Made by a program: the position numbers and the translations under genes
Part shown: positions 2,048-24,806 of the stretch, one piece after another
How positions within the stretch are numbered: position 1 is the stretch's first letter
Layout of the letters: every line of letters begins with the position of its first letter
Assembly (NCBI RefSeq): GCF_002214585.1
Contig: NZ_CP014863.1
Location: 1 to 38,045 of the forward strand
Length of the DNA: 38,045 bases
Direction: 5' to 3'
Source: Thermococcus profundus
GTDB taxonomy: Archaea > Methanobacteriota_B > Thermococci > Thermococcales > Thermococcaceae
The notes under the pieces: generated by a model
Database searches by the model: none
Told to the model about the DNA's origin: nothing
The model's input: the letters and a program-made list of their open reading frames with translations, nothing else

Positions 2048-2413
2048 ATGACTGAATTGAATCCCATCTTTGAGGGGCGTTTGCTTGATGCACTCAAGCA
2101 TGGTGAGTGGTGTCTTAGTGCTGATGGTGAATATCTTGTAGTGCCCGTGAGGGCAATCAGCAATAGCAAGGCTGAAACTTCGAGCTTCATTGAGATAATT
2201 GAGGTTCTTGGCTTGGGACGCTATGGTGTAACAACCAGAAAAGGTGTTGGCTCGTTTAGAGCGTTTTTCATCAAGATTTCAGCTTTGAGAAGTGTTAGCG
2301 AGGAATTCAGCGAGCTTTTCAAAAAGGAACTCAGTAGACGAAAATTAGGAGGTTCCTGTCCCTTAATGGCTTCTTCTCCGGGCAGAGGGGGTGATTCCAA
2401 TGAGCGCCACTGA
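2048..2413 (+). CDS. Small hypothetical protein leading the replication operon
   Basis: A 121-residue protein. The ATG at 2048 is chosen because GGTGGT (2039-2044) precedes it; an in-frame TTG at 2036 overlaps that site and is less likely. The middle part (residues about 15-90) alternates strands and helices; the C-terminal third is rich in Lys, Arg, Gly and Ser. I cannot assign a family. The 3' end overlaps the PrimPol start by 14 bases, which suggests coupled translation and a role in replication or copy control; a winged-helix fold is possible but not shown. Confidence 0.65.
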   Translation: MTELNPIFEGRLLDALKHGEWCLSADGEYLVVPVRAISNSKAETSSFIEIIEVLGLGRYGVTTRKGVGSFRAFFIKISALRSVSEEFSELFKKELSRRKLGGSCPLMASSPGRGGDSNERH

Positions 2414-4868
2414 AACCATTATCAAGGATTTCTCTGAAAACAGGAATCTCATTAAAAAGATTTTCAAGACACTGTTTCCAGAGGGTTGGGTTGAGGTTAG
2501 CGTTCTGAGACGGGGAGATTACGATCCCAAAAAGCACGAGTTTAGGGTAAGGGGACGCTACAGTCGGTACTTCAATCTCTCTCGTCGCGGGGCTGCAATG
2601 GGATTTGCACATAAGGTTGAGTCAATTCTCATGCACGAAATCGAAAGTGGGGCGCTGAGGGGCGTTTATTTTGGAATGCAGCCACGAAAGGAGAACCTTC
2701 TCAATAAAGCGAGCAAGGAGAATAACATTCTTGGGATTTTTAATGTTATCTTGGATATTGACTACTTCCACGCTCCAGAGGACAATGAGAGGCTTGAGCG
2801 GTTTGGCCTGACCGATAAAATGAGATTTGAGTTGCTTGATCTTGCGAACACCGCAGTCTCAGCCTTCAAAACCGCTGGAGTTTCACCAGTGTACGCCCTC
2901 ATTACTGGTAGGGGCGTTCAAATAGCTTTTAGACTTGAGAAGCCCCTGACGGGGGAGTTGGCAACGACAGAGTCATTAAGGTTCATTGCTCTCAAACTTG
3001 AAGAGGTTCTCCATAAGGATGAGGAATTTCACCGGAAGTTTGGACAAGTGGGTCTGGATCATAACGCGATTAAACTGGCGCAAATCGTTCGATTTCCGCT
3101 AACCCCTAATGGGGCCACTAAGAGGTTCGTCCCAACTGAGTTCGCTTTCGTCGCTGATGATCTTGAAAAGGCTGTCATTCCAGAGGCATTTGTTGTGGAT
3201 GCACTCGAGGTCATGAAGCACGCTTCTGCCATTGGTCGTGCAAAGGGAGCTGAAGTTGAGGTTCAGGTTAAGTCGAGGCCTGTAAAACTCTCTGAGTTCA
3301 AGCTGAACCTTTCCGATGAGCACAAGAGAAGGATAGCCGAGATTTTTGCTGGATTGTATGAGAAAGGAACTCACAATGATTTGGCCCTTGCGTTGGCTGG
3401 ATTCCTTGCATGGAGGCGCGTTAGCGTTCAGGACGCACTTGAAACTGTTAATCTGTTTCTCAACATAACTGGAGACTCTGAGAATACATCAATTGTCGAG
3501 AAAGAGCTTGATGGTGTTCTGCTCAAGGGAGGACAGCGGGCTGTTGAGAAGATTTACTACACTTATTTAAGGGCATTATCGGGGGAGAAAGTCGCTTGGA
3601 AGACCCTTCTTAAGGATGTTCTAAGGAGCAAAGCAATGAGAGAAGCTAGTTCTTGTGATGAAGTTGATGACCTTGTGTCGAAACAATTGACTCAGGTGAT
3701 TATGCAACTGAATCGTGCCTTCCCCCTACGCCGTTCAAAGTTTCATAGGAAAGAGAAGGATGATCCCTCAGAGCTTGAGCTTGATTACGATAATCTCACT
3801 GACAATGAAAAAGAGGTTTTTGAGATCTTTTTGGAGTTTATTAACCTTCTCGTTGAGTTTCTTAGCGTGAGAAAAAAAGAGCGGAACAAAAAGGCAATAG
3901 AAATAGCTGAGTTTTCTTTTAATCTGTTTGATAGGGTTCAGGAGAACTTGGTTAGGGCAGTAATTTACGTCAAACATACGGTTAACGGGACATCAAGGAG
4001 ATACTCTCTGGAGGTTCTTGACAAGAACCTGAACGTTCACGAGATTACTCTTAATTCCTTGGATAAACCCATGCTCCTCCTCACTGCTATTGGCAATGTT
4101 CGTCGAGAATACCTAATTCCTCCAGACAGTTGGATACAAGATCAATTAGCCAGAGCGCTCAGGTTCAAAAATTTGGAACATGCAATGATTATTAACCCAA
4201 AACTCTACTTAGGTCTGAATAGTCTATTTCACAATGTAACAGAGGCGAAACTCACAAGAGAACTGGAGAAATTTGAGCATGCTCTCAGAGACAGTTGGGA
4301 AATCGTGAGGATTCAAACTGATGAGGAACTTGCTGAAGAGATTTTGTACTCGATTCTCTCAGACGCCCGTGTCCTAATTGTTAAAAGCGACGAAGTTTAT
4401 TACCAAGATTGGGTTTATGTCACTAACAGGGGAGAATTGCTTATTCCAGCCTCTCTAATTGAGGAGCGCTTGTCATTGAACAAGGTCAGTGGTAAGGCGT
4501 TTGTCTCCGCCCTCAGAAAACGCAAACTGTTCATCAACAATGCTCCTGGAAAGTACCGGACCACGCGGAAGGTCAAAATGCTTGAGGAACTGTTGAGGGA
4601 CTTCAAAGGGGATGTCAACTTCGATTCCTCCATTGTTGCGCAGGAAACATTTTACCGTCTGAGCGCCAATGCAGTATTTGATTTCATCTCTGAGGTGTTC
4701 AACGAGGACGTTCGCAAGAGGATAATCAGTATTGAAGAAGCCCTTAACTCGCTCAAACTGTTTGAGCTCAAAGAGAAGCTTAGAGAAGCCATTGAACAGC
4801 AAACTTCAGAGGCCGAAGAGACGCCTGCAGTTCTTGAGATCCAAGCTGGAGGGGGTGAGCCCCGATGA
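2400..4868 (+). CDS. Archaeo-eukaryotic primase-polymerase (PrimPol), pTN2-like
   Basis: An 822-residue protein whose N-terminal third carries the AEP signature in order: VYFGMQPRK (about 89-97), metal-binding DID (119-121) in VILDIDY, a motif II-like TGRGVQIAF (169-177), and a nucleotide-binding RFPLTPNGATK (about 231-241). AEP enzymes make primers and extend DNA. The motif II position that normally holds His is Gln174. The remaining ~550 residues are helical and charged, as in large plasmid primases with C-terminal primer or DNA-binding regions. The ATG at 2400 follows AGGGGGTGAT; an upstream GTG at 2391 is less likely. The stop overlaps the SF1 helicase start by 4 bases. A PrimPol beside an SF1 helicase is the known pTN2 arrangement (established knowledge); relation to PolpTN2 is inferred. 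Confidence 0.85.
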   Translation: MSATETIIKDFSENRNLIKKIFKTLFPEGWVEVSVLRRGDYDPKKHEFRVRGRYSRYFNLSRRGAAMGFAHKVESILMHEIESGALRGVYFGMQPRKENLLNKASKENNILGIFNVILDIDYFHAPEDNERLERFGLTDKMRFELLDLANTAVSAFKTAGVSPVYALITGRGVQIAFRLEKPLTGELATTESLRFIALKLEEVLHKDEEFHRKFGQVGLDHNAIKLAQIVRFPLTPNGATKRFVPTEFAFVADDLEKAVIPEAFVVDALEVMKHASAIGRAKGAEVEVQVKSRPVKLSEFKLNLSDEHKRRIAEIFAGLYEKGTHNDLALALAGFLAWRRVSVQDALETVNLFLNITGDSENTSIVEKELDGVLLKGGQRAVEKIYYTYLRALSGEKVAWKTLLKDVLRSKAMREASSCDEVDDLVSKQLTQVIMQLNRAFPLRRSKFHRKEKDDPSELELDYDNLTDNEKEVFEIFLEFINLLVEFLSVRKKERNKKAIEIAEFSFNLFDRVQENLVRAVIYVKHTVNGTSRRYSLEVLDKNLNVHEITLNSLDKPMLLLTAIGNVRREYLIPPDSWIQDQLARALRFKNLEHAMIINPKLYLGLNSLFHNVTEAKLTRELEKFEHALRDSWEIVRIQTDEELAEEILYSILSDARVLIVKSDEVYYQDWVYVTNRGELLIPASLIEERLSLNKVSGKAFVSALRKRKLFINNAPGKYRTTRKVKMLEELLRDFKGDVNFDSSIVAQETFYRLSANAVFDFISEVFNEDVRKRIISIEEALNSLKLFELKEKLREAIEQQTSEAEETPAVLEIQAGGGEPR

Positions 4869-6763
4869 AGGCCATCAGGATCGTAGGCAATGCTGGCACA
4901 GGCAAAACTACAACCCTTCTATCTCTTTACTCATATTTGACGAACAGACCACTCTCTTCACTCCAAAGGGACATTATTAATGAATATTTCGGTGATTTAA
5001 ACGTCCCAAGAGGAAAAGAAGCATTGATGTTAACGTTTAGCAGCACTGCTGCCAAGGAGCTTGCCAAGAGATTAACGGGACAGGAGGATACGGGCTATTT
5101 GACGAACATTCGGACATTGCATTCGTTTGCGGCCTCTTATCTAGCCCAAAGAAGATCAATAAAATTCCCTACGGTGAACGGCCGTCCGGGCGATACCTTT
5201 GTTGTGTTTTGCAGGAAGTTCAACATTCCATTCTCGACCGAGGAGCCTTTTGCCCCTCTGTTGGGAAATACCATTGCAAACATGCTTTCAGCGGCGATCA
5301 ACAGATATTACCCGGAAGAGAAAGATATTGGCATTGTTTTAGCAAAGCACATATTACCCAGGCTTCAGGGTAAAGAGCAGGAAGTACTGTTGAGCTATTT
5401 GGAATTCAAGGAGAAAACTGGCTATTGGGACTACAACGACGTTCTCATGGCCCTATTCGACGAGGAGCACATTGATCTCTCCTCCTTTGGTGACGAGGAG
5501 ATTGGATACCTCATTATTGATGAGGCACAGGATCTCTCGGCGCTTCAGTACTCGATTATCTCAAAGATTGTCCAAGACAATCAGGATGCTATTGACCTCG
5601 TTGTTTTTGCTGGGGATCCGCACCAGACGATTTATTCGTTCCAAGCGGCTGACCCGCGCTTTTTCATGGAGTTGGACAAGTTGTTGGGAGTGGACGTTGA
5701 GACGATAGTCCTCAAGCGTTCTTTTCGAGTTCCTCGGACTGTGAGCTTTGCCAGCAAACAACTCCTCATCCGAACTAGAGCGGTACTAAATCCGAGTTTT
5801 CTGAACTATGAGCCGAGGCCAGAAATCGGGGAGTATCGAGTTATCCCCTTTGTTGATCTTGTTGATGGGAACACTGTTAGTGAGGCTATCAAGATGAGTC
5901 AAGTTCGTAAACTGATTGAGGAGGCGGGCGATGAGCTCAAAAGAGGGAAGAGTGTTGCAATCTTGACAAGGACTAATGTTCAGGCTCGGTTTTTTGAGAA
6001 GCTGTTCATACTGGCTGGGTACTCGCCAAAACGATTGAAGGCCTCTGCGGCAAGCGCGGCGGACAAACTCATGTTCATCCTAGCTGGAGTGGATTATCTC
6101 CAGAACGGGCTTGAGGAGGGAGCCGTTCCAAAAGAGGTCAAAGAAGAATTGTTCGCTTCACCAGGTTGGAGGGCTAATGTTAAGAGGTTCCTTCGCCTCA
6201 CTGCCTTTTCGAGGTACCTCGACAATGAGCTAATCGAGCGAATGCTGCTTTATTCTTTCAAGGAGCGAGGAGTCAATTTCGACAAGATGAAGTTCAAGGG
6301 CGCAACTCTTGATCACGTGCAAAAGAATGAGAAGTTGAGAAGGCTCGTTGAGAAAAATCGGCCCGTTATTGAAAGGTTCCTTGAGAACCCTATGCGGTTT
6401 CTGAGCAGGAAGGACGTTGAAACATACCTCCGTGACAAGGATTATTATGATGTCCTCCTAGTTCTTTTAAGGACTGGACGGGCACTGACTGACTCTCATC
6501 TTTTCATTGACACTATTCATGCGAGCAAGGGAGCCGAGTTTGATGTCGTTTATTTGTACGATTCCACTAGGGCTCTGCCTGCTACTGAGTCGGAAAAGAG
6601 GGAGGCTGTGTTCGTTCTTTATGTGGGGATGACGCGTGCAAGGGAGGCTTTGAGAATTTTGGATACGGAAAACAGTTTGTTGGGTTATTTCAAGAGGGAG
6701 CACTCCCTTTATGAGCTGGGCAACGCGAGCCTCGTACAGCACCTTGCGCAGGTTGCTACTTGA
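4865..6763 (+). CDS. Superfamily 1 (UvrD/Rep-type) DNA helicase
   Basis: A 632-residue SF1 helicase. Motifs in order: Walker A GNAGTGKTT (8-16), Ia around TFSSTAAKELAKR (57-69), Ib IRTLHSFAA (82-90), motif II DEAQ (219-222), III GDPHQTIYSF (250-259), IV LKRSFRVPR (283-291), V HASKGAEFD (about 551), VI VGMTRAREAL (about 587-596). All motifs are intact, so it should be an active ATP-driven translocase. The length is close to UvrD-like enzymes with shortened 1B/2B domains. It starts inside the PrimPol stop (ATGA overlap) behind GGAGGGGGTGAG, so both are made together and probably act together in plasmid replication, as proposed for pTN2. Confidence 0.92.
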   Translation: MKAIRIVGNAGTGKTTTLLSLYSYLTNRPLSSLQRDIINEYFGDLNVPRGKEALMLTFSSTAAKELAKRLTGQEDTGYLTNIRTLHSFAASYLAQRRSIKFPTVNGRPGDTFVVFCRKFNIPFSTEEPFAPLLGNTIANMLSAAINRYYPEEKDIGIVLAKHILPRLQGKEQEVLLSYLEFKEKTGYWDYNDVLMALFDEEHIDLSSFGDEEIGYLIIDEAQDLSALQYSIISKIVQDNQDAIDLVVFAGDPHQTIYSFQAADPRFFMELDKLLGVDVETIVLKRSFRVPRTVSFASKQLLIRTRAVLNPSFLNYEPRPEIGEYRVIPFVDLVDGNTVSEAIKMSQVRKLIEEAGDELKRGKSVAILTRTNVQARFFEKLFILAGYSPKRLKASAASAADKLMFILAGVDYLQNGLEEGAVPKEVKEELFASPGWRANVKRFLRLTAFSRYLDNELIERMLLYSFKERGVNFDKMKFKGATLDHVQKNEKLRRLVEKNRPVIERFLENPMRFLSRKDVETYLRDKDYYDVLLVLLRTGRALTDSHLFIDTIHASKGAEFDVVYLYDSTRALPATESEKREAVFVLYVGMTRAREALRILDTENSLLGYFKREHSLYELGNASLVQHLAQVAT

Positions 6764-6844: not shown

Positions 6845-6895
6845 CACCAATGCACAAAAACCCAAGGGCCGAAACTAAGAATGGAAGTGGTCATT

Positions 6896-7032
6896 ATGAT
6901 GACTAATGAAAGTAAAGATGTCGTTGAAAAAGCCAAGTCAATTGAGTCCCTTCTCAGGAGTTTAGATGAAGAAACCTCCACCGAAAAAGCCATCAAGATT
7001 TTTAGCAAAATTTTCGAGTACTGGGGCTTTGA
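6896..7032 (+). pseudogene. N-terminal piece of the Eco57I-like methyltransferase, cut off by an inversion
   Basis: The ATG at 6896 (a second ATG follows at 6899) is preceded by GGAAGTGG. It encodes 45 residues ending YWGFE, typical of the helical N-terminus of large Type IIG/Eco57I-like methyltransferases. Beyond 7032 the + frame turns into the antisense of a real coding segment. Joining 6896-7032, the reverse complement of 7033-7801 and 7802-10831 gives 3936 bases, an uninterrupted frame of 1311 codons plus stop. In the present orientation this start yields only a short fusion of the N-terminus to nonsense residues, ending near 7237. Confidence 0.8.
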
Positions 7033-7807
7033 AAGGACAAAGTTTTTGACGTCAACTTTTTTCCTCAGCTCTTCTCTGAGTGAATCAAGGTCAACTATCC
7101 AGCCCTTTTTCTGGAGGAAATACACAAACATCAACCTGTTGAAGAACGTATGTGCAAAGGTCTTGGCGGCTCTCTCGATGAATATCTCTTTTCTCTTTTT
7201 CTCTGGGATTGGGGTGGACTCCACCGTAAGAAGATAATCCGCTGGACAGCGCTTTTCAAGTTCTGCCCCGTAGTGCTTCTTAATCCAATCTTTGAGCCTG
7301 TAGTAGTTGTCCCGATAATCTTTGAAAAACTCCTCCGTAAGGGGTCTGACGAGCATGTAATTGTTTAGAGCGTCCCTAATCAAGCTGGCGGAAAGTTCTT
7401 TGTGTCCTTCTAATTCAAGGGCCACCTTTGCGATGTTTGAAGCCAGCGTCCTGAATTTCTTTTCAGAGGGATCGATGACGTAAACGTTGAGCTTCGCACT
7501 CTCAAGCTTTCTCTGATAGATTGGAACTATCAGCTTCCAGTATTTGTGTTTGGAGCTCTTGGGATTCTCTGTTACGTCCAGTATGAGGATGAAATTGGCG
7601 AAGGAGATATCCCCTGAGAAGGAAGTGAAATTCAGAAGGTTCTTCACAAGCTTTTGGCGGTACTTAAGGGTGTCTTTCCAGGTCTCGGCGTAGATAACGT
7701 AGAAATTCAGGACAGAAGAAGGGGCAACGGATATTATCTTTAACTCGTCGGTGTTTTCGTCCACAAAATCATCTAAGTAGTCTCCTTCAATATCCTCCTC
7801 CTCGAAG
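7027..7807. other. Inverted DNA segment inside a methyltransferase gene
   Basis: The coding segment 7033-7801 runs on the minus strand while the gene's two ends are on the plus strand. The end points fall in a 6-bp imperfect inverted repeat: CTTTGA at 7027-7032 and TCGAAG at 7802-7807 (opposite strand CTTCGA). Both restored junctions are in frame: YWGFE to EEDIEG at one side, and NFVLSK to WLHDQYEEYGG at the other. A near-palindrome centred on TTGACGTCAA (7046-7055) lies just inside the left end. No recombinase gene is visible in the window. Confidence 0.85.
7033..7801 (-). pseudogene. Inverted middle piece of the Eco57I-like methyltransferase
   Basis: Read on the minus strand this encodes about 256 residues, from EEDIEGDYLDD through to VDVKNFVL. 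It contains HTFFNRLMFVYFLQKKGWI (about 7070-7126), a hallmark of the region ahead of the methyltransferase domain in Eco57I, BREX PglX-like and Type IIG proteins. Automated callers will probably report a minus-strand gene at 6838-7764 starting at GTG 7764; its last ~65 residues are antisense of the plus-strand N-terminal coding sequence and are not meaningful. There is no ribosome binding site before that GTG. The family places this segment between the N-terminal piece at 6896 and the catalytic piece at 7802. Confidence 0.82.
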
Positions 7808-10800
7808 TGGCTTCACGACCAGTACGAGGAGTACGGAGGCAACTTTTACAGGGACTACCTCAGGGTGCTCTTCCTCTACGCCATGAACAAGCCGAGGAGA
7901 GGATACGCACGCAAAGACAGCGAGGAGATAAAGAGCGTTCCATCTCCCGTTGTTAGAGACATATTCCTCTACGGGGTTCCCTACTTCAACGGTGGCCTCT
8001 TCAGCCCGGTTGAGATTGCAGGGGTTAACCTCGACGAGATAATCACCGAGATAGATGATAAACTGTTGTCGGAGATAGTCCTCGGCTTCTTCGAAGCATA
8101 CAACTTCACCGTCACGGAGGAGACTCCCTACGAAGTTGAGGTGGCCGTTGACCCAGCAATGCTCGGCAAGATTTACGAGTCCCTCATAGCGGCTGAAGAG
8201 CAGGCCGGGAGTGAAGAGGAAAGGAGAGCATCGGGAATATTCTACACACCAAGGAGCGAAGTGGACTTTATGTGCAGGATGGCGGTCTATGAGTACCTCG
8301 AAAGGAACACCAAGCTCGACAAAGAAATTTTGAGGAAGTTCATCTTCACGCCATCCTACGATTGGGATCCAAATTCACTCACTTGGGGCGAGATTGAAGA
8401 GATTGAAAAGGCCCTCAAAGATGTTAAAATCGTTGACCCCGCCGCGGGAAGTGGTGCCTTTCTCGTTGGTATGTATCACCTTCTCATAGAGCTCTACGAA
8501 AAGCTCACAGAGGACTCCAAGATCACCTACAAGAAGAAGCTTGAGATAATCCGCGACAACATCTACGGCGTTGACATCAAGGACTGGGCGATAAGGGTAG
8601 CCAAGCTCAGGCTCTGGCTGGCCCTCATTGAAGGGGAGGGCAAAATACCCAATGAGCCGATCCTTCCAAACCTCGAAACCAAGCTGGCCGTTGGCGACTC
8701 CCTCGCCCCACCGCACTTTGTCCTTAAAATCGGCGGAAGGAAAAAGGTCATCGAGATTCCCTTAGCCAAGTTCAGGGAGAGCCTCAAACTCCTCTGGGCA
8801 AGAACGGGCGCAAGTGAGGCGATAGTAAGCTACAAAGAGCTCGTGAGGAAGTACTTTATGGGTGAAAAGATCAACGGAAAGCCCGTTACTCTGAAGGACA
8901 TCCAGGACGCAAAATGGGGCGCCCTCCAAGAGTTCCTTGAGAGTGCCCTTAACGAGGAGATGAAGGCAAAGGAGAAGAAGGAGATCAGACTACTCCTTGA
9001 GGCGGTGTCAAAGCAGGACTACTCGACCTTGGAAAAGCCGCCTTTCATCTGGGAGCTTGACTTCCCGGACGTGATGCTTGAAAAGAAGGGCTTCGACATC
9101 GTGATAGCCAATCCACCCTACGTGAGGCAGGAGAAGATCTACCCAGAGTACTACGATTTGGCCGAGTTTCAGATGCTTCCAAAGAAAGAGCAGGAGAAGC
9201 TTAAGAAGGACTACAAGAACAAGATAAAGGCCCACATGGAGACCATTCTAAGGGAGAAGTTTAAGTGGGAGACTACCCTGCCGGGAAGGAGCGACCTCTA
9301 TGCTTATTTCTTCATCCAGGCCGTAAACCTGCTGAACCCCAATGGCTCGCTCGTCTTCATTACCTCAAACTCCTGGCTGGACGTGGACTTCGGAAAGGCC
9401 CTTCAGGAGTTCTTCATAAGGGCGACCTACCTCAAGGCTGTGATAGACTACACGAAGAGGAGCTTCGAGCAGGCGGACGTTAACACGGTGATAACCGTCC
9501 TCACGAGGAAGCCGGCCAAGCTCTTCAACCTGCTCGATGAGAAGTCCTTCACCAACTTCGTCCTCCTCAAGAGGGACTTTGACTGGGTAGGCGAGAAACT
9601 CGTCGAGAAGATACTGAAACCGTACTTCGAGGAGAAGGGCGTCGAGATCTTTGGAGGAATCGTCCACAGCTACGAGGACGACGAGGTGAGGGTTAGAACC
9701 GTTAGAGAGATAGAGCTTGCCAAAATGGGCGGCTTCAAGGTCAGGGAGTTCCTCAAGGGGACTTACACCCTTCAGGGTGAGTACAGTGGAATGAAGTGGG
9801 GCGGAATACTCATAAGGGCGCCGAAGATATTCTACGTTATCCTCGACAAGGGGAAGGGCAAGCTCGTGAGGCTTGGGGAGATTGCCGAGGTCAGGAGAGG
9901 GTTCACAACGGGAGCGAACGAGTTCTTCTACCTTGAGCCGATAAAGAATCCAAAGGAGTGGCCGATCTGTCCGGTTTGTGGAAGGGTTCACGAGCCGGGA
10001 GAGGGCTTAGTTGCAGTGAGGAACAAGGCGGGATGGGAGGGCTACATTGAAGAGGAGTTTCTGAGACCGGTCGTGAAGAGCCCGCAGGAGATAAAGACCT
10101 ATGTAATTAGGCCAGAGGACCTGAAGCTTCGTGTGTTCCTCTGTAATCTCTCGAAAGAAGCGCTAAAGAGAGCTGGCAAGGTTCATGCGTTGGAGTACAT
10201 CGAGTGGGGAGAGAGTCGGGGATATCAGAATAGACCAACAACTAGATCACGCACCCTCTGGTGGGATTTAGGTGTTAGGGAGCCGTCCCATATTTTAATT
10301 CCAGAAAGGTACTGGAACACATACAAGATAGCTCTGAATACTGCTCAAGCGCTTGAAAACAAGAACCTTTATGGGGTGCGTTTGGATGAGTCCAACATAG
10401 ATACAACTATGGGATATTTAGCTTCTACAATTTTGCCACTGTTCCTTGAACTGTATGGGAGAAGCAATTTAGGAGAAGGCGTTCTTGACATTGATGTGTA
10501 CATGAGCCAAGAGATATTAGTACTCCACATAGACGACGTAGATAGGGCAGAAAAATTACATTGGCTCCTAATGAAGTTAGCCAACCGCCCGATCAAGTCC
10601 ATCTTCGAGGAGCTCGGCCTTCCGAAACCAAACAGAGACTTCAGCAACGTCAAGCCTGAGGACGTCTCCATTGGCAGGGTTCTTCCAGACAGGCGCGAGC
10701 TTGACAGGGTGATCTTTGAGGCGCTCGGATTGACCGAGGAGGAGCAGCTTGAGGTTTACAGGGCGGTTGTCGAACTCGTGAAGGCAAGGCTGGTGAAGGC

Positions 10801-10831
10801 GAGGACGTTTTCAAAGAAGGGGAAGAGGTGA
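7802..10831 (+). CDS. Catalytic and target-recognition part of an Eco57I-like adenine-N6 methyltransferase
   Basis: About 1009 codons remain in the correct orientation, beginning SKWLHDQYEEYGGNFYRDYL. Visible motifs: GIFYTPR (about 8240), SAM-binding DPAAGSGAFL (8435-8464), NIYGVDIKDWAIRVAKLRLWLAL, catalytic NPPY (9110-9121), and GRSDLYAYFFIQ. The C-terminal half should hold the target recognition domain, including a possible CPVCG knuckle (about 9970). The motifs predict N6-adenine methylation; any nuclease activity would lie in the N-terminus or in partner proteins. A caller would start at GTG 7865 or ATG 7883, but I see no convincing start; this is the tail of a 1311-residue protein broken by the inversion. 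Bases about 10120-10580 are distinctly AT-richer than their flanks. The stop is 6 bases before the next gene. Confidence 0.88.
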   Translation, partial: SKWLHDQYEEYGGNFYRDYLRVLFLYAMNKPRRGYARKDSEEIKSVPSPVVRDIFLYGVPYFNGGLFSPVEIAGVNLDEIITEIDDKLLSEIVLGFFEAYNFTVTEETPYEVEVAVDPAMLGKIYESLIAAEEQAGSEEERRASGIFYTPRSEVDFMCRMAVYEYLERNTKLDKEILRKFIFTPSYDWDPNSLTWGEIEEIEKALKDVKIVDPAAGSGAFLVGMYHLLIELYEKLTEDSKITYKKKLEIIRDNIYGVDIKDWAIRVAKLRLWLALIEGEGKIPNEPILPNLETKLAVGDSLAPPHFVLKIGGRKKVIEIPLAKFRESLKLLWARTGASEAIVSYKELVRKYFMGEKINGKPVTLKDIQDAKWGALQEFLESALNEEMKAKEKKEIRLLLEAVSKQDYSTLEKPPFIWELDFPDVMLEKKGFDIVIANPPYVRQEKIYPEYYDLAEFQMLPKKEQEKLKKDYKNKIKAHMETILREKFKWETTLPGRSDLYAYFFIQAVNLLNPNGSLVFITSNSWLDVDFGKALQEFFIRATYLKAVIDYTKRSFEQADVNTVITVLTRKPAKLFNLLDEKSFTNFVLLKRDFDWVGEKLVEKILKPYFEEKGVEIFGGIVHSYEDDEVRVRTVREIELAKMGGFKVREFLKGTYTLQGEYSGMKWGGILIRAPKIFYVILDKGKGKLVRLGEIAEVRRGFTTGANEFFYLEPIKNPKEWPICPVCGRVHEPGEGLVAVRNKAGWEGYIEEEFLRPVVKSPQEIKTYVIRPEDLKLRVFLCNLSKEALKRAGKVHALEYIEWGESRGYQNRPTTRSRTLWWDLGVREPSHILIPERYWNTYKIALNTAQALENKNLYGVRLDESNIDTTMGYLASTILPLFLELYGRSNLGEGVLDIDVYMSQEILVLHIDDVDRAEKLHWLLMKLANRPIKSIFEELGLPKPNRDFSNVKPEDVSIGRVLPDRRELDRVIFEALGLTEEEQLEVYRAVVELVKARLVKARTFSKKGKR

Positions 10832-10837
10832 GTCTTT

Positions 10838-12643
10838 ATGGACTCACCAGTTTATCTTCTTTACATCCCCCTAAAATCTGAGATCGAAATTGAGACAGTG
10901 ACAGAGGATGATATCCAGAGAGAAGAACTTACAGGGGAGGAGGCAGAAGAATTCCTTGAGTTCTTAGAGAAAGAAATATTCCCCCTAGCCCGTAAAAATT
11001 ATGAGGAGGGCGATTTCACTAAGAGAAGTTTAATCCTCAGGGTCAGAAATGTGCTCAAAAATAATGATCCTACCCAGCTTGAAACACTCCTCTTGGATTT
11101 TCTCGAAAATGGAACCGCCACATCAATGAGGGCTGAAGGAAAATACGTTATTGCAGTTCTCTACGAAAATAAACTCTATTTAATTCACAGCAAGATTAAG
11201 GAACGTAGTGTGGGCAGGGAAGAAGAAACACATAGCTTTAAGGTTTACGAACGCTTCCTTGACAAGGATAATCTCTATCGTTTTATTGTATTTATCCTTG
11301 AGGACAATACCCTCAAAGCAAGGATGTATCTTAAGCATGACTCTAACAAAACATTCCTTGAATGGCTCGGAATTCCTCCAAAGAGAAGACCCCTTCCAGA
11401 GAACCTCACAGTAAAGTTCGTAGGCACTTTTGGGAACTACAGACTCTCAATTGAATTGGATATCGATACTGTGCTTAAGCTGGAGGAGAGAATGGAGGGC
11501 GGGAGAGCCATCACTGAGGATATCTGCATTGACCTAAATCGGGGAAAGTTAAAGGTCGGCGAATTAAGCTTGAACATTGACTATGGGATATTCCCAGCCT
11601 TTAAAAAGAAGGTCCCCAGAGATAAACTTGGAGAGCTATTTTACTATGCCAAACAACTTCGCTCTGATTGGGACTATCAGATTGCATATCTTGAAGAACT
11701 CCCCAATAAACTTAGGGAAATGATCAAACAGCCAGATTTGCAATCAGTACTTTCTTCTATCCAAGGCAATCCACCATACGAAGAGAGGATTGATGGTTTG
11801 TACAATAAAGAGACTGGAAAGCTAGTTTTACCTAAAGATGGCGGTGACATTGTTTTGGTTTACTTTAGCAAAAATCATGAGAAGTTTATTGAGCTATCAC
11901 CTGATTTTCTTAATATCCTTGCAGAGAGGATACTGGAGAACAGCACACTAAAGATGATGGTTTTAAATCGGGACATAAATCCAGACAAGCCTATTAAAAT
12001 TGATAATGTGTACCTGTACAACAGACTTCCGCCCGAATTCGAGGAACTCTTTAAGGAACTTCCAAAAGCGGATGGAGATGAAAATGAATGGAAAGAGTTG
12101 TCTCCAACATATCGCACATTGCTGAAGTTATCAATCCTGAACTTTATTGGAAGTTTCAGCGAGCAGTATTATGTTTTTCAGAAGGTTCTAGAGTACATTC
12201 AAAAAACAAAACAGATAGCTGATGTGGACATGATTCCGGAAATAGAGGACGTCATGGAATTCAAAGGACGTGATGTTCTCTACAATGAAAAAGGCAAACC
12301 CAAAGATTCTGAGGAGATTGTGGACTATCTGTTTAGTGATATTCTTAAGAAAATCTCTGGAACAAATTTCAAGTTCTATGCTATTGGGATTAACAAAAAT
12401 ACACGGAAAATAGAGCCAATAGAGGAAGGATACTTTTGGGATGATATCATAAGAGATGGAATCTACGAACCACTTCATGAGAAACTTAAGTCCAACGGGC
12501 TTTCAATATCCAAACCAGTGAAGCTTCCAGTCCGTGGTGGTTTTATTCTACTATTCTCGGTGAGAGTTGAAAACCCCAGTTTACTTCAACAACAGATCTC
12601 CTCTGGGCTTAAAGCGTTGGAAGGCATGGCTGAGGGGAGGTGA
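10838..12643 (+). CDS. Hypothetical protein of the methyltransferase operon, 601 residues
   Basis: I cannot assign a family. It starts at the ATG at 10838 behind GAGGTGAG, 6 bases after the methyltransferase stop, and its end runs into the ribosome binding site of the next gene, so it is part of the same operon. It is soluble, charged and mixed alpha/beta. A stretch near residues 95-120 (KYVIAVLYENKLYLIHSKIK) and a long acidic N-terminus are its plainest features. No Walker, PD-(D/E)XK or HNH motif stands out. It is clearly AT-richer than the conserved part of the methyltransferase, suggesting a different recent history. By position it is likely a dedicated partner of the methyltransferase, such as an effector, specificity or accessory subunit (inference). 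Confidence 0.75.
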   Translation: MDSPVYLLYIPLKSEIEIETVTEDDIQREELTGEEAEEFLEFLEKEIFPLARKNYEEGDFTKRSLILRVRNVLKNNDPTQLETLLLDFLENGTATSMRAEGKYVIAVLYENKLYLIHSKIKERSVGREEETHSFKVYERFLDKDNLYRFIVFILEDNTLKARMYLKHDSNKTFLEWLGIPPKRRPLPENLTVKFVGTFGNYRLSIELDIDTVLKLEERMEGGRAITEDICIDLNRGKLKVGELSLNIDYGIFPAFKKKVPRDKLGELFYYAKQLRSDWDYQIAYLEELPNKLREMIKQPDLQSVLSSIQGNPPYEERIDGLYNKETGKLVLPKDGGDIVLVYFSKNHEKFIELSPDFLNILAERILENSTLKMMVLNRDINPDKPIKIDNVYLYNRLPPEFEELFKELPKADGDENEWKELSPTYRTLLKLSILNFIGSFSEQYYVFQKVLEYIQKTKQIADVDMIPEIEDVMEFKGRDVLYNEKGKPKDSEEIVDYLFSDILKKISGTNFKFYAIGINKNTRKIEPIEEGYFWDDIIRDGIYEPLHEKLKSNGLSISKPVKLPVRGGFILLFSVRVENPSLLQQQISSGLKALEGMAEGR

Positions 12644-13361: not shown

Positions 13362-13395
13362 ACTAACAACCACTAACTTTTTATGGGTTGTTAGT
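13362..13395. promoter_or_regulatory. Operator: perfect 10-bp inverted repeat over the AbiE promoter
   Basis: ACTAACAACC (13362-13371) and GGTTGTTAGT (13386-13395) are exact reverse complements separated by 14 bases. The spacer contains the TATA-like ACTTTTTATG of the AbiEi gene. AbiEi antitoxins are known to repress their own operon by binding inverted repeats at the promoter, so this is very likely the autoregulatory operator. Confidence 0.75.
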
Positions 13396-13399
13396 CAAA

Positions 13400-14032
13400 A
13401 TGAAGATCATGAAGCCGATCATTCAGCTGCTCCTTTCGGATTACGGTGGACAGGTAATAACCCGCGAAGAACTGGAGAAGCTCGCCACTTACTTCAGCGA
13501 GGACGTTGACTATCTCGTGAACTACCTTATCCAGTACGGCTACGTTATTAGAATTCTCCGGGGTTTGTACTACGTGAAAACTCCGCTGGAATTCTCATCG
13601 GGGGGTTCCCCACCAGTCTACAAACTCCTCTCTCTCGGAATGAGCAGGATAACGGAGAACTGGTATTTCGGTCTGTTTACGGCCCTGGTACTCAACGGCC
13701 TCACCCACGAGACATTCACAACCGTTTTCGTTATCAACGACAGAATAGCCAGGCCAAAAGTCATAAACGTGAACGGAACACCCGTGAGAATAATCAGGAG
13801 CAGGCGGAATATCTTCGATTTCGGAATAATCGTAAGGGACTCGTTGAAGCTCTCCGACATTGAAAAGACCCTTCTTGATTTCCTCTACTTTTCCAGTTAT
13901 GGTACTGTTTCCAGGGAACTTGCCCTGAGAATCTGGAGGGAATACTCGGGGTATGCTGATAGAGAAAAGCTCAAACGATATTCCGAGAGGTATCCAATGT
14001 CAGTGAGGAAGGTGATCCGGGATGGAAGGTAA
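13400..14032 (+). CDS. abiEi: AbiEi-like antitoxin / transcriptional regulator
   Basis: A 210-residue protein. The N-terminal winged helix (about 1-60) ends in IRILRGLYYVKTP, the typical wing of AbiEi antitoxins. The rest fits the AbiEi C-terminal domain (FDFGIIVRDSLKLSDIEKTLLDFLYF). The ATG at 13400 (or 13409) lies 20-30 bases downstream of the TATA box, with no ribosome binding site, so a leaderless message is likely; a TTG at 13388 is improbable. It overlaps the toxin gene by 11 bases. AbiEi is the antitoxin of type IV systems and represses the operon; the inverted repeat over its promoter fits. The pair sits within the methyltransferase/helicase island, an unusual nesting. Confidence 0.82.
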   Translation: MKIMKPIIQLLLSDYGGQVITREELEKLATYFSEDVDYLVNYLIQYGYVIRILRGLYYVKTPLEFSSGGSPPVYKLLSLGMSRITENWYFGLFTALVLNGLTHETFTTVFVINDRIARPKVINVNGTPVRIIRSRRNIFDFGIIVRDSLKLSDIEKTLLDFLYFSSYGTVSRELALRIWREYSGYADREKLKRYSERYPMSVRKVIRDGR

Positions 14033-15038
14033 TTCACTCCTGATGGAAATCCGCAGGAACGAAAGGAGAGGTTTTGCAAGGTTCGTTTCCAGAAAAACAG
14101 GAATAAAATCCATTGATCTCGTCGAATGGGACTACATAATCCATACGATTTTGAAAGAACTTGAGAGGGATCCGCAGTTTAAGGAAAACTACATTTTCAA
14201 AGGTGGCACATGCCTTGTGAAGTGTCACCTCGGTTATTACCGCTTCAGCAGAGATCTGGATTTCGCATACCGGGATAGCGACAGGCTTAGAGAACTGAGC
14301 AGGAGTCAACTCAGGCAGTTCCTGAACGAGGAAACGGGAAGAATAGCAGAAATCCTGAAGTGCGTCGCGGAGGACTTAGGCCTTGAGTTTCAGTACTCGG
14401 GGCATAATGACTTCAATAACCATAGGTATTTTAGCTTCAGGATTGGTCCGGGCTGGTTCAGGGAGATAGTGTTGTACTCCCCACTCGGTGAGAAGATAAA
14501 AATAGAAGTAAACTACGCGGAAAAACTCGCGTTTAAGCCTAAAACATTGAAAGCGAACACATTATTATCCTGGAAGGGGATTACGCTCACTTCAAAGGAA
14601 TATGAAAAGTACATAGAATTCCTTGGCAACTATTATCCTCTTCGCATTCTTGCATACTCTGACAGGGAAATCCTCGTGGAGAAAGTCAGGGCACTCTTAA
14701 CCAGACGGGAGTTTAAGCTCAGGGACCTCTATGATTTGTACAAACTCAATCAACGTGGGCTTGAGATTTCAAAATACAAGAATAAAATAGTCGACAAGAT
14801 AAGAAACTACTTGGCCTTGAGTTCGTTAGCAAGGGAACATCTGGAAGTTGCTCTGAATTCAATTGAAGAAGGCACTTTCCTCACAGATATTGGCGCCGAG
14901 ATAGAGAGGGATAGTGGCCTGATTGTGGAACCTTTCAGCAAAGAAGAATTTTTGAAGTTTGTTGATGAGTTAAGAGAAGAATTAATGGAAATCTCAGGAG
15001 ATTTAAAACCTCTAAATGAGGTGAAAAACAATGGCTGA
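14022..15038 (+). CDS. abiEii: AbiEii-like nucleotidyltransferase toxin
   Basis: A 338-residue DNA polymerase beta-like nucleotidyltransferase. Active-site motifs are intact: FKGGTCL (59-65), RFSRDLDF (74-81), IKIEVNYAEKL (about 163) and LRDLYDLYKL (about 232). This is the AbiEii arrangement; such toxins transfer nucleotides to RNA (tRNA for studied members) or other targets and are restrained by AbiEi. The ATG at 14022 follows GGTGATC and overlaps the antitoxin gene. The end overlaps the start of the PLD-helicase gene by 8 bases, so toxin and helicase are translationally coupled. The intact motifs suggest an active toxin. Confidence 0.88.
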   Translation: MEGNSLLMEIRRNERRGFARFVSRKTGIKSIDLVEWDYIIHTILKELERDPQFKENYIFKGGTCLVKCHLGYYRFSRDLDFAYRDSDRLRELSRSQLRQFLNEETGRIAEILKCVAEDLGLEFQYSGHNDFNNHRYFSFRIGPGWFREIVLYSPLGEKIKIEVNYAEKLAFKPKTLKANTLLSWKGITLTSKEYEKYIEFLGNYYPLRILAYSDREILVEKVRALLTRREFKLRDLYDLYKLNQRGLEISKYKNKIVDKIRNYLALSSLAREHLEVALNSIEEGTFLTDIGAEIERDSGLIVEPFSKEEFLKFVDELREELMEISGDLKPLNEVKNNG

Positions 15039-18000
15039 GTCAGCCATACAACTTCTTGACAGGCACGGCCTTGTTGACAACCAAAGGGTTAGACTAATAG
15101 ACGTCCTCAGGGAGGTTCTGACTTCTGGATACTACAACCAGATAGACGTTGCGGTTGGCTTTCTTTTCATAAGTGGGATGAGGGAAATTCAGGATGAACT
15201 TGAGACTTTCTTCTCCAAAGGAGGCAGGATGAGAATAGTGATAGGCAACCAGACGAACAGGGAAACCTTCGAGCAACTTAGTATGGTTTATCATTCACTC
15301 GAAGCTCTTCAGAAGATAAAGCGCCGTGAAAAAAGCATTGAAACCAACCTCGACCAACAGAGCGAAGACATCGAAAAAAACGCCAATTTCATGGAACAGA
15401 GCGAAGAAAATGAGCTATTCTTAAGAAGGCTCATGGAGTGGATCCAGAGCGGGAAACTTGAGATCAAAATCTACGTCAAGGAGTTCATGCATGCAAAAGC
15501 TTACCTGTTTTATCCCTCAGAAACTTCCATGATGCGGATAGGCCTCGTTGGGTCAAGCAATTTCACATTAGCTGGACTCTCTGGCAATACTGAACTGAAC
15601 GCCATCGTTCAGTCTACTCATTTCGAGAGCCTGAAGGAATGGTACGAGGGAATATGGAAAGAAGCATTACCATTCAACCCCAAATTGCTTGAGATAATAG
15701 GGAGAAGTTGGGCAGGCCAAGTACCCGGCAATCTCCCCTCACCCTGGGAAGTCTTTATCAGGGGACTGTACGAGCTCTACAAGGAGATACTGGAGAGGGA
15801 TACAGGATTCCTGTTGAGAAGGCTTGAAGACAAACTCTATGACTTCCAGAAAGATGCGGTTGTGAGAGCAATATCCATCGTTAATAAGTACGGGGGAGTC
15901 TTAATAAGCGATGTAGTTGGTCTTGGCAAGAGCTACATTGGACTGGCACTCCTGGAGCATTTCTCACTCTTAGATCTTCTCCAGGGTCGTCCGAAGGAAG
16001 TTGCGGTAATAGCCCCACCTGGCCTTATTCGCTACTGGGAAAGCCTATTAAGAGAGAATAACATTCCTGGAAAAGTGTTTTCATCCGGCCTGCTCCCTCG
16101 CAGAGAGTTATCCCCAGAGAAGTATCAGGAAATGGAAGAGTACATAAAACGCGTAGGAACCGTGCTGGTTGATGAAGCCCACCACTATTCAAATCCACAC
16201 ACGAAATCGTACAAAAACCTCCAGGAACTTGTGGCTGGCAAAAGGCTCATTCTCTTAACTGCGACACCGTACAGAAAGATGTACAGGGACATAATCAACC
16301 AGATTCGTCTTTTCCTTCCAGAGAGGAGACATCCATTCCCAATAACGCCGCAGACTTGGGACGAGTTAACGAAGGCCATAGAGAGAGGTGAAATTGATCC
16401 GTCATACGTACTGAGAGAAGTTCTAATACGAAGAACTAGGTATGATATTCTCAAGCTCTACGGGGGCGAAGGCAACTGCATCAAGATAAAGAAGAACAAA
16501 AAACTTTGTTTCCCACGGAGAGAGCTGTCAGTGCTCACATACACAATATCGGAGGTCTACCCAGAGGACATTTACGAGCTACTTCTGAATGGAATTTCTT
16601 CCATGAATTACGCTAGGTTCGACCTCTACAACTACGTACTTCCCCAGTTTAGGGAGGCTGAACCCTACAAGAACCTATCCTCGGCTGGCAAACCCCTCAA
16701 GGGCCTAATGAGAATCCTCTACCTAAAACGCCTTGAAAGTTCTTGGTATGCCATGTATCAGACTCTACGGAGGGACTTAATAAAGACTAAAAACTTCATT
16801 AAATTTGTCCAGAATGGCCTCATCCCAGCGGGAGATGAGTTTGACGACATTCTTCTTGGAAAGATCAATAGTAATGAAGAGGGACTCCTCAGCGATGAGG
16901 AGGTTGCAGAGTTCATCGAAAAGTACAAGCTCAAAAACAAAGTAACTTACAAGGCTGGTGCTTTCAGGGTTGGAAAGCTCCTTGAGGATTTAGAGCATGA
17001 TATCAAAATCCTTGAGTCAATGGAAAAACCGTTGAAAAAACTCAAGGAGGACCTTGAGAACCATCCAGAGAAAGATCCAAAGCTTAGGAGGCTAGCAGAG
17101 GAAATCATAAAACTGAGGAAAGAAGGCAAGAAGGTTCTCGTCTTCAGTGAATTCGAAGAGACCGTTCAGTGGATCCACAAGGGCCTCAAGGAAATTCTTC
17201 CTAAGGATATTTCTCAAAAAATGGATTACGTGAGCTCAAACACCAAGGGAATAGCCGACAAAATCAAGCGTTTCGCTCCAAAATCGAATGGAAATCTAGA
17301 TATTGATGAGTCACAGGAGCTTCATATTTTAATAGCGACTGATGTCCTCAGCGAAGGTCTTAACCTCCAGGATGCGAATGTTGTCGTAAATTATGATCTA
17401 CATTGGACCCCCATCAAGCTAATCCAGAGAATAGGTAGAGTTGACAGAATTGGAACGGAGCATGATGAGATTCTAGTTTACAACTTCTTCCCCGAGAAAA
17501 AGCTTGAGGAAAATCTAGGACTCCTGCAAAAGGTAGAGAGAAGGGTCCAGGAGTTCAGCAGAGCACTTGGAACAGATGGAAAGATCCTTCAAGAAGAAGA
17601 GGAGTGGAATCCATCGGCGATAAGAGCCATCTATGGGACAGATGAGATGGAAAAAATAGAAGAGGAGTTCAGCAGTTCCTTGCTCTCAGTCACTACTTTT
17701 GCCGAAAAGCTGTTGCGGGATTACAAAGAAGCCAACGAGGAAAGGTTCAAAGAGATAATAAAGAGGTACTCAATGAGAAGCATTGTAAAACTCCCCAAGG
17801 GAAAAGAATCAGTAGCCTTCTTTGTCTGCACTAACGGAGTGATTTCCCAATACTTTGTTTACCGCCTCATAAATGGAGAGTGGAAGCCCCAAAACGTTCC
17901 AATTGAGCAACTGTTAAAGGATACTGGATTGAAGGAGAACACTCGACCATACAACAGCAGGGAGGCTATGAAGACTTATCGTCTCGTGGCTAATAGGGCA

Positions 18001-18411
18001 CTATCTAACTTCAAAGAACTATTGAAGATATCCGAAAGCGAGCTGGAGTACACACGTAGGAGTGCCTCTAAAATACCTCCAAAGGTGAAACTCATCCTTG
18101 GAAAGATCGAGGAAAAAATGGCAAAAACGAAGAATCCCGGAGAGAAAGAGTATCTCAGCCAGCTTCATGATCTGGTGTACTGGGGCTACCTCAATAATGA
18201 GCCATTTAAGAACGCCCTGCTCAGGGCCAATGTAACGAAAAGAACATCGAGGGATACAGTGATAAACCTCTGCCAGGAACTTGTTGAGCGCTTTGGCATT
18301 GCAGCCCGCCGGAATGCCATCAAAGAGGAAATTAAAAAGCGGAAAACAGAGGGAGTCAAGCCGCACATAGTAGCTGGACTTCTCTTCGTTCCGGAGGAAG
18401 TAGAAGGTTAA
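15031..18411 (+). CDS. PLD-nuclease / SNF2-type helicase fusion
   Basis: An 1126-residue fusion. The N-terminus is a phospholipase D-like domain with its HKD-type half-site: HAKAYLFY (154-161) and GSSNFTLAGL (174-183), followed by NTELNAIV. Next comes an SF2/SNF2 motor: Walker A DVVGLGKSY (294-302), DEAHH (379-383), TATPYR (408-413), helicase C VLVFSEFEE (about 704), and motif VI QRIGRVDRIG (about 797-806). The C-terminal ~300 residues are helical. PLD and SNF2 proteins occur in anti-phage systems such as DISARM (DrmC, DrmD), there as separate subunits. Here the probable partner is the methyltransferase upstream: it would mark self DNA while this protein moves along and cuts unmarked DNA (inference). 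The ATG at 15031 follows GAGGTGA. Confidence 0.9.
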   Translation: MAESAIQLLDRHGLVDNQRVRLIDVLREVLTSGYYNQIDVAVGFLFISGMREIQDELETFFSKGGRMRIVIGNQTNRETFEQLSMVYHSLEALQKIKRREKSIETNLDQQSEDIEKNANFMEQSEENELFLRRLMEWIQSGKLEIKIYVKEFMHAKAYLFYPSETSMMRIGLVGSSNFTLAGLSGNTELNAIVQSTHFESLKEWYEGIWKEALPFNPKLLEIIGRSWAGQVPGNLPSPWEVFIRGLYELYKEILERDTGFLLRRLEDKLYDFQKDAVVRAISIVNKYGGVLISDVVGLGKSYIGLALLEHFSLLDLLQGRPKEVAVIAPPGLIRYWESLLRENNIPGKVFSSGLLPRRELSPEKYQEMEEYIKRVGTVLVDEAHHYSNPHTKSYKNLQELVAGKRLILLTATPYRKMYRDIINQIRLFLPERRHPFPITPQTWDELTKAIERGEIDPSYVLREVLIRRTRYDILKLYGGEGNCIKIKKNKKLCFPRRELSVLTYTISEVYPEDIYELLLNGISSMNYARFDLYNYVLPQFREAEPYKNLSSAGKPLKGLMRILYLKRLESSWYAMYQTLRRDLIKTKNFIKFVQNGLIPAGDEFDDILLGKINSNEEGLLSDEEVAEFIEKYKLKNKVTYKAGAFRVGKLLEDLEHDIKILESMEKPLKKLKEDLENHPEKDPKLRRLAEEIIKLRKEGKKVLVFSEFEETVQWIHKGLKEILPKDISQKMDYVSSNTKGIADKIKRFAPKSNGNLDIDESQELHILIATDVLSEGLNLQDANVVVNYDLHWTPIKLIQRIGRVDRIGTEHDEILVYNFFPEKKLEENLGLLQKVERRVQEFSRALGTDGKILQEEEEWNPSAIRAIYGTDEMEKIEEEFSSSLLSVTTFAEKLLRDYKEANEERFKEIIKRYSMRSIVKLPKGKESVAFFVCTNGVISQYFVYRLINGEWKPQNVPIEQLLKDTGLKENTRPYNSREAMKTYRLVANRALSNFKELLKISESELEYTRRSASKIPPKVKLILGKIEEKMAKTKNPGEKEYLSQLHDLVYWGYLNNEPFKNALLRANVTKRTSRDTVINLCQELVERFGIAARRNAIKEEIKKRKTEGVKPHIVAGLLFVPEEVEG

Positions 18412-19005: not shown

Positions 19006-19398
19006 ATGGCATTTGAGCTCGCATTAAGCAGCACCAAGCCTCTTGTGGATATGCTAGTCGCAGCGGTTAATTTATTAGGCGAGAATCCCCCTTCAAAGGT
19101 CGTGATACTTGAAGTTGCAGAACAAGGAGCTTCACTACAAATAACAGAGCCAAAGAGAGTTGCTTTTGTGAAGATTTACATTCCACGAGGACTATTTTTA
19201 AAATACAACATTGAGGATAAAGAACTCGTTGAAATTCCCTGGTATGATCTCGAAAGAGTTCTTAAGAGATCCAAGAGTAGTGATGTCCTTATCCTCAAAA
19301 AAGGGAATGAATCAGTTTTGGAAGTTACATTTGAGAGTGTAGCAATACGAACCTTCAGGCTCCCGTTACTCTCTCCTCAGAAGACCCTGAGTAGTTAG
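19006..19398 (+). CDS. Single-domain PCNA homologue (N-terminal half only)
   Basis: A 130-residue protein matching the first domain of Thermococcales PCNA: MAFELAL (PCNA MPFEVVF), EPKRVAFVKIYIP (DPSRVVLIDLNLP), FLKYNI (FSKYEV), LERVLKRSKSSDVLILKKG (LKKVLKRGKAKDTLILRKG) and IRTFRLPLL (TRTFRLPLI). PCNA is normally ~245 residues: two like domains joined by a connector loop that binds PIP-box partners. This product stops just where the connector would begin, followed by an opposite-strand gene, so domain 2 is absent. It has a good start (GGTGAGG before the ATG) and TATA box, so it looks like a real gene. It could assemble as a many-membered ring, pair with host PCNA or poison the host clamp; all three are inference. 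Alternatively it is a captured fragment. Confidence 0.86.
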   Translation: MAFELALSSTKPLVDMLVAAVNLLGENPPSKVVILEVAEQGASLQITEPKRVAFVKIYIPRGLFLKYNIEDKELVEIPWYDLERVLKRSKSSDVLILKKGNESVLEVTFESVAIRTFRLPLLSPQKTLSS

Positions 19399-23580: not shown

Positions 23581-24780
23581 TTAGGAGATTTCAGGTTTTT
23601 GATGAAGTTTCTGCTGAATAACTTGAGTGGTAATATTCTTGACGAGAAACGGATCCTCTTGTAACTGAAACATGTGGGTTCTCCCGTAGCGACCGCGACT
23701 TACAACGCGCCTGGTTAGTAAGCCCTCACTCTCCAATTTTGCACCAATGTAATTGATAACATGCTTCATAGTTCGATAATCCCAGTCAAGAGCATTCGCA
23801 ATATCGCGATATCTTAAGTAAAGCTCGCTACTGCTAACTTCTTTTTTCTCAATACTCATAGCAGCTAGAGCATGCAACAATAGAAGGGCATCAGTATCAA
23901 GATTCATGATGATCTGTTCAATAACGCTTCTCTCAACCCGATCAATTGCAGCCCAAATCGTTTTTTCAGTAATCTTGTCTTCGCCGAGGGTAGCTGCCTC
24001 GCGCAAAACCATAAAAGCCCATCTAAGATCCCGACTCTGCCGTCGAATGAGGGCCGCCAGTAGCCGTATGGCAGCATCATCCACAGCCCCAGGAACAAAA
24101 GCCTGCTCAACACGATCCTTAAGAATCGCATAAAGCTCTTCAGCATCGTAATTTCTGAAATAAACCAGAACCGGTGAAAGGCTTGAAAAAGTTGGTGCAG
24201 AGAGCCGTTCGAGTGTCACAGCATTGTTCGTGACAAAAAAATTCGAAACAGCCACCTTACCAGCGCGCTCGTTGATCCGCGTCAGTGAATAAATCAACCC
24301 ATCCAAATCCCCCTCTTTCTTCCGCATTTTATCAATCTCATCCATAATGAAAAGATATCGCATGTTAGAAGTCCTTAAAAACTCCAGAAGCTTATCATAA
24401 ACATCCGCCGTACTCATACCCCCATGGAGCCCAGACACTCCTAATTCTCTGGCAAGAGCGAGGAGAGCATTTCTGTGAGTGAGATCCTTAACACTTATGT
24501 AAATTGCCCGACTGTTGATGTTCTTCTCACGAGCGAGATCATTGTAGTCCTGCTCTAGTTGTCGAACTGCCACAGTCTTACCTACACCGGGCTCCCCATA
24601 AATGATGACATTAATATTAATCCCCTGGAAGAGGAAACTTGCAGCGTGCTTAGTAATGTCTTCAATCTCCTTCTCCCTAAACAAGAGACGTGGGGGTATG
24701 TAACTTTCAGATAACACCTCAGGATGAACCAGTAGTTGATGAGTAGATTCAAACTTTTGAAGGATATCTTTTATCCTCAT
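23581..24780 (-). CDS. Orc1/Cdc6-type replication initiator
   Basis: A 399-residue AAA+ ATPase with Walker A GEPGVGKT (62-69), Walker B FIMDEIDKM (144-152), sensor-1 FFVTNN (181-186), and a C-terminal winged helix (about 310-385; KHVINYIGAKLESEGLLTR, then GRYGRTHMF as wing). This is the archaeal Orc1/Cdc6 layout at typical length (~400). It binds origin recognition boxes and loads the MCM helicase. The ATG at 24780 follows GGGGG; a TTG two codons upstream is less likely. ORB-like repeats and an AT-rich stretch lie just upstream, and the first repeat sits between the TATA box and the ATG, suggesting that the protein controls its own gene. Confidence 0.88.
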   Translation of the reverse strand: MRIKDILQKFESTHQLLVHPEVLSESYIPPRLLFREKEIEDITKHAASFLFQGININVIIYGEPGVGKTVAVRQLEQDYNDLAREKNINSRAIYISVKDLTHRNALLALARELGVSGLHGGMSTADVYDKLLEFLRTSNMRYLFIMDEIDKMRKKEGDLDGLIYSLTRINERAGKVAVSNFFVTNNAVTLERLSAPTFSSLSPVLVYFRNYDAEELYAILKDRVEQAFVPGAVDDAAIRLLAALIRRQSRDLRWAFMVLREAATLGEDKITEKTIWAAIDRVERSVIEQIIMNLDTDALLLLHALAAMSIEKKEVSSSELYLRYRDIANALDWDYRTMKHVINYIGAKLESEGLLTRRVVSRGRYGRTHMFQLQEDPFLVKNITTQVIQQKLHQKPEIS

Positions 24781-24806
24781 GTCCAAGCCCCCATTTCTTA
24801 TTCAGG

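Follow-up and report, generated by a model that had tools for sequence, protein, structure and literature searches.

How does a methyltransferase gene come to read plus, minus, plus along a single strand, and is such an arrangement a switch, an assembly error, a remodelled enzyme or simply a lesion? The question is raised by a complete contig of 38,045 bp (the whole stretch of DNA that was analysed, here called the window) from the two-contig genome of Thermococcus profundus, which totals 2,043,143 bp. In the ORF map of the window, a methyltransferase gene at 6881-10831 is split by a flipped segment of 769 bp:

6881..7035, plus strand: N-terminal piece of the split methyltransferase, its first ~52 codons (plus-strand blastn match over 6883-7032 to the relative at locus L101)
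7036..7804, minus strand: inverted segment of 769 bp, residues ~52-307, comprising the N-terminal domain and including HTFFNRLMFVYFLQKKGW (minus-strand blastn match to L101, contiguous with those of the flanks; breakpoint scan with five homologues)
7805..10831, plus strand: C-terminal piece, with the adenine methyltransferase domain (Eco57I / N6_Mtase / MmeI_Mtase) and the target recognition region (Pfam, PADLOC, start codons)

As the DNA stands, the N-terminal piece continues, in the wrong frame, into the inverted segment and ends at 7237. If the middle is turned round, the frame is free of stops over 1316 codons when read from the ATG at 6881, and over 1311 from a later start, the latter being the length proposed in the initial annotation. 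Pfam matches in the C-terminal piece are to PF07669 (E=1.8e-32), PF02384 and PF20473; alignment reveals the N6-adenine methyltransferase motifs DPAAGSGAF and NPPY, which place the protein among Eco57I/PglX-like adenine DNA methyltransferases, and its top PADLOC models are type IIG. The view that an Eco57I-like methyltransferase has been split by an inversion is borne out by the plus, minus and plus pieces, and by the alignment with the family that had been suggested as a check: the restored protein matches uninterrupted ORFs in relatives from end to end, and is therefore not a chance ORF. No second copy of the gene was found in the genome. The target recognition region (window ~9900-10600, residues ~1010-1240) is highly variable among relatives while both its flanks are conserved, a pattern expected from specificity-domain swapping.

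Does the middle really belong to the methyltransferase, or might it be a gene in its own right? Searched for alone as a protein, it was found in 10 further genomes of the genus, and a profile search located it at 17 other places, spread over 15 further genomes of the family. With the window, this makes 18 places, comprising 11 uninterrupted ORFs (1284-1349 aa), four broken ones (the window, L018, L019 and L104) and three cut by contig ends. The segment is sense-oriented at all 17 other loci (at L023, where a contig end intervenes, orientation could be checked at the left joint only) and inverted at none; in distant bacterial relatives, too, it is carried by a longer ORF, in the part nearer the N terminus. 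Since the middle is sense-oriented within the methyltransferase ORFs of relatives, distant bacteria included, it is part of the methyltransferase and is inverted in this plasmid. Homologues with the minus-strand segment as a separate gene, which would have spoken for the opposite view, were looked for and none was found. The closest relative is L101, with 80% identity over the restored protein (L015, 74%; L014, 66%). Against L101 the segment has a dN of 0.13 with synonymous sites saturated, and hence purifying selection has acted on it through most of its history. A relative-rate test for relaxed selection was uninformative, as different regions have different closest relatives. Other plasmids and viral contigs, searched for this locus, gave distant matches only, and a literature search on inverted pglX produced no clear report of one.

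The boundaries of the inversion can be fixed closely. When the unaltered window is compared with L101 by blastn, the matches run from 6883 to 7032 (plus), 7036 to 7804 (minus) and 7805 to 10272 (plus). An open frame is of no help in locating the breakpoints (one was obtained with 1011 of the boundary pairs tried), but a scan against five relatives put 7037-7803 and 7036-7804 at the top, with scores of 7691 and 7690, as against 7576 for the 7033-7801 of the initial annotation. We favour 7036-7804 over 7037-7803; it also gives GTC as the valine codon at the right joint, as is common to the closer relatives (L014-L017), whereas 7037-7803 would give GTG. Flipped in this way, the sequence aligns to L101 without gaps across both joints, and 7033-7801 needs a 6-nt gap at each, amounting to a deletion of two amino acids on the left and an insertion of two on the right relative to the family. 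The initially proposed length of 769 bp was thus correct, but its position was 3 bp too far to the left. Judged against L101, the inversion is balanced, without loss or gain of a base, and both joints match relatives. Relatives differ in the pair of residues at the left breakpoint, and no in-register sequence is common to the two breakpoint sites.

What might have brought the two sites together? The initial annotation placed the breakpoints in an imperfect inverted repeat of 6 bp:

7027..7032, plus strand: CTTTGA, left arm, outside the real breakpoint and out of register with it
7802..7807, plus strand: TCGAAG, right arm

This resemblance is attributable to chance, being equalled in 97.6% of random pairs of sites spaced 769 bp apart in this window; nor is it in register with the real breakpoints. 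Paired in register, the sequences on either side are complementary at 8 of 30 positions, which is background level, and there is no inverted repeat at the breakpoints themselves. The longest exact inverted repeat nearby is one of 7 bp (GTACTGG/CCAGTAC, 7018-7024 and 7819-7825), about 11-14 bp outside the breakpoints; this too lies out of register, and one as good turns up in 8.5% of random pairs. It was rejected as a recombination site, its register (7018+7825) being 3 nt off that of the inversion, and its use would remove the conserved GF at the left joint.

These observations bear on whether the inversion exists at all. An assembly or finishing error, with an uninterrupted gene in the real plasmid, would be consistent with the completely open frames of the segment and both flanks, which one would expect had nothing been inverted. 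However, with exact inverted repeats of no more than 7 bp near the breakpoints, the ambiguity that usually lies behind an inverted misassembly is absent. Moreover, if the T. profundus plasmid described in PMC5823998 is this one, it was assembled from IonTorrent reads of ~389 bp together with paired Illumina reads, long enough to span the junctions. An artefact, which the initial annotation had also entertained, is thus conceivable but unlikely, as the junctions lie in unique, repeat-free sequence.

Could the segment instead flip back and forth, turning the methyltransferase on and off? The fact that all the pieces stay open after the flip would suit a phase-variable switch, and comparable cases occur in other modification systems. 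The hsdS gene of Streptococcus pneumoniae is likewise a DNA-modification gene with an internal segment that inverts (PMC4948785), and such invertible genes depend on inverted repeats (PMC4948785, PMC7096588). Genes of the hsdS type have these repeats, usually with a site-specific recombinase, and inversion alters specificity; in the window, by contrast, repeats are absent, no recombinase lies nearby, and inversion breaks the gene. No match to PF00589 (Phage_integrase) or PF00239 (Resolvase) was found on the plasmid, and a Pfam search of the whole genome disclosed a single tyrosine recombinase, which is chromosomal and XerA-like, and no serine recombinase. Some inversion switches, it is true, rely on a distant or unknown recombinase. 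Nevertheless, in-register inverted repeats are missing, no inversion is seen at the 17 other family loci, and the left breakpoint lies at a variable residue pair, with no in-register sequence common to the two sites. We therefore consider a reversible switch very unlikely. Those large inversions that are known in Thermococcales involve homologous segments, down to 104 bp in the case of the pTN3 integrase (PMC8371274), but neither these nor hsdS-type repeats apply to the 7036-7804 inversion. A more elaborate proposal, in which a repeat-free reversible inversion, brought about by low-specificity recombination, toggles a methyltransferase-dependent PLD-SNF2 defence module in a hyperthermophilic archaeon, seems to us far-fetched. 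The phase variation suggested in the initial annotation is accordingly unsupported, for lack of inverted repeats, a nearby recombinase or an inverted relative; of its description of the event as recent or reversible, the first part is supported and, for the same reasons, the second is not.

A further possibility is that the inversion left a shorter but active enzyme, read from an internal start at 7865 or later, so that modification was kept and some other function of the N-terminal domain was lost. The motifs DPAAGSGAF and NPPY and the recognition region do all lie within the intact C-terminal piece, for which the earliest in-frame start is a GTG at 7865, followed by an ATG at 7883. Neither, however, has a good ribosome-binding site, and the N-terminal domain has accompanied the enzyme from archaea to bacteria. 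By eye, the N-terminal alignment has no conspicuously conserved PD-(D/E)XK signature, as would be expected of the nuclease that type IIG enzymes carry N-terminal to the methyltransferase, and it thus gives no hint that a nuclease was removed. An AlphaFold2 model of the domain from a relative (mean pLDDT 76.9) has an alpha/beta core; Foldseek gave nothing below E=0.001 with this model, the most plausible weak matches being to subunits of tRNA-splicing endonuclease (TSEN; E=0.14), and sequence searches yielded no convincing solved structure. On balance, functional remodelling is highly improbable.

The consequences of losing the methyltransferase depend on the company that it keeps:

4865..6763, plus strand: UvrD-family (GajB-like) helicase, directly upstream of the methyltransferase
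10838..12643, plus strand: accessory gene of unknown function, 601 aa (a ~38% identical gene follows the methyltransferase at L021 and L022)
13388..15038, plus strand: AbiEi/AbiEii pair, intact
15031..18411, plus strand: PLD (HKD)-SNF2 helicase fusion, 1126 aa, intact
19006-19398: short ORF with a marginal match to the PCNA N-terminal domain
23581..24786, minus strand: replication initiator of the Orc1/Cdc6 type, with 60% identity to its pTBMP1 counterpart

An AbiEi/AbiEii pair and a PLD-SNF2 fusion also lie downstream of the methyltransferase at roughly half of the loci in relatives (some of the stretches compared end before that point). The fusion is probably the restriction arm of the module. 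The UvrD-family helicase had no match in the relatives' loci compared. Directly upstream of it, an 825-aa ORF (2391-4868) has no Pfam or PADLOC match, and the two may form a separate defence unit. The initiator and the PCNA-like ORF indicate that the contig is probably a plasmid; no overlap between its ends was found that would point to circularity. The plasmid of T. profundus DT 5432 has been described as belonging to the pTBMP1 family, in a genome series determined by IonTorrent and Illumina sequencing (PMC5823998).

Three other family loci are broken, each by an ordinary and different lesion. At L018 (G022) there is a 1-nt frameshift near GGGCCC (10355-10364), possibly a sequencing error, with the downstream PLD-SNF2 helicase intact. 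At L019 (G034) an in-frame TAG (13412-13414) replaces a glutamine codon of relatives; here PLD-SNF2 downstream is intact, and AbiEi is represented by a short match. At L104 (G076) an insertion of ~0.9 kb (8909-9834) resembles an IS element whose transposase is broken. Loss of the methyltransferase gene is therefore not rare. The PLD-SNF2 gene is intact at three of the four broken loci (the window, L018 and L019), and the window allele, taken with the three independently broken relatives, suggests that the effector is harmless without its methyltransferase; if so, the methyltransferase would be needed for both restriction and protection.

From all this we conclude, with a probability of about 0.73, that a single recent, balanced inversion of 769 bp (7036-7804), whose ends lack homology, disrupted the PglX/Eco57I-like methyltransferase of a plasmid-borne defence module. 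The inversion presumably arose through illegitimate joining of broken ends, and its product would be a methyltransferase that is non-functional or at best N-terminally truncated, so that the module would be off. The cell would survive because the PLD-SNF2 arm appears to need the methyltransferase in order to act, which would make loss of the enzyme a safe off-state. Among the three readings offered in the initial annotation, a survivable off-state is thus the one best supported. The locus provides a clean, naturally occurring loss-of-function allele of a Thermococcales defence module that has received little study and, as a balanced inversion free of homology, adds one small observation on illegitimate repair among hyperthermophiles.

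How does this module compare with known systems? The intact PglX/Eco57I-like methyltransferases of Thermococcales at L101, L015 and L014 likewise have AbiE and PLD-SNF2 genes downstream, but each is a single uninterrupted ORF without an inverted segment, unlike that of the window. The window resembles pTBMP1 of T. barophilus in its Orc1/Cdc6 initiator (60% identity), but only four window proteins match the initial 50 kb of pTBMP1, the cargo differs, and the methylase of pTBMP1 matches that of the window weakly (31%). Among defence systems, DISARM class I (DrmMI/DrmD) and ARMADA come to mind. Pfam scans of window ORFs (and PADLOC scans of the main neighbours) turned up no DUF1998 or YprA-like partner of the kind that these have. 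They do combine a PglX-like adenine methyltransferase with a SNF2-family helicase, as the window does; in the window, however, a PLD nuclease domain is fused to the SNF2 helicase, and an AbiE pair is present.
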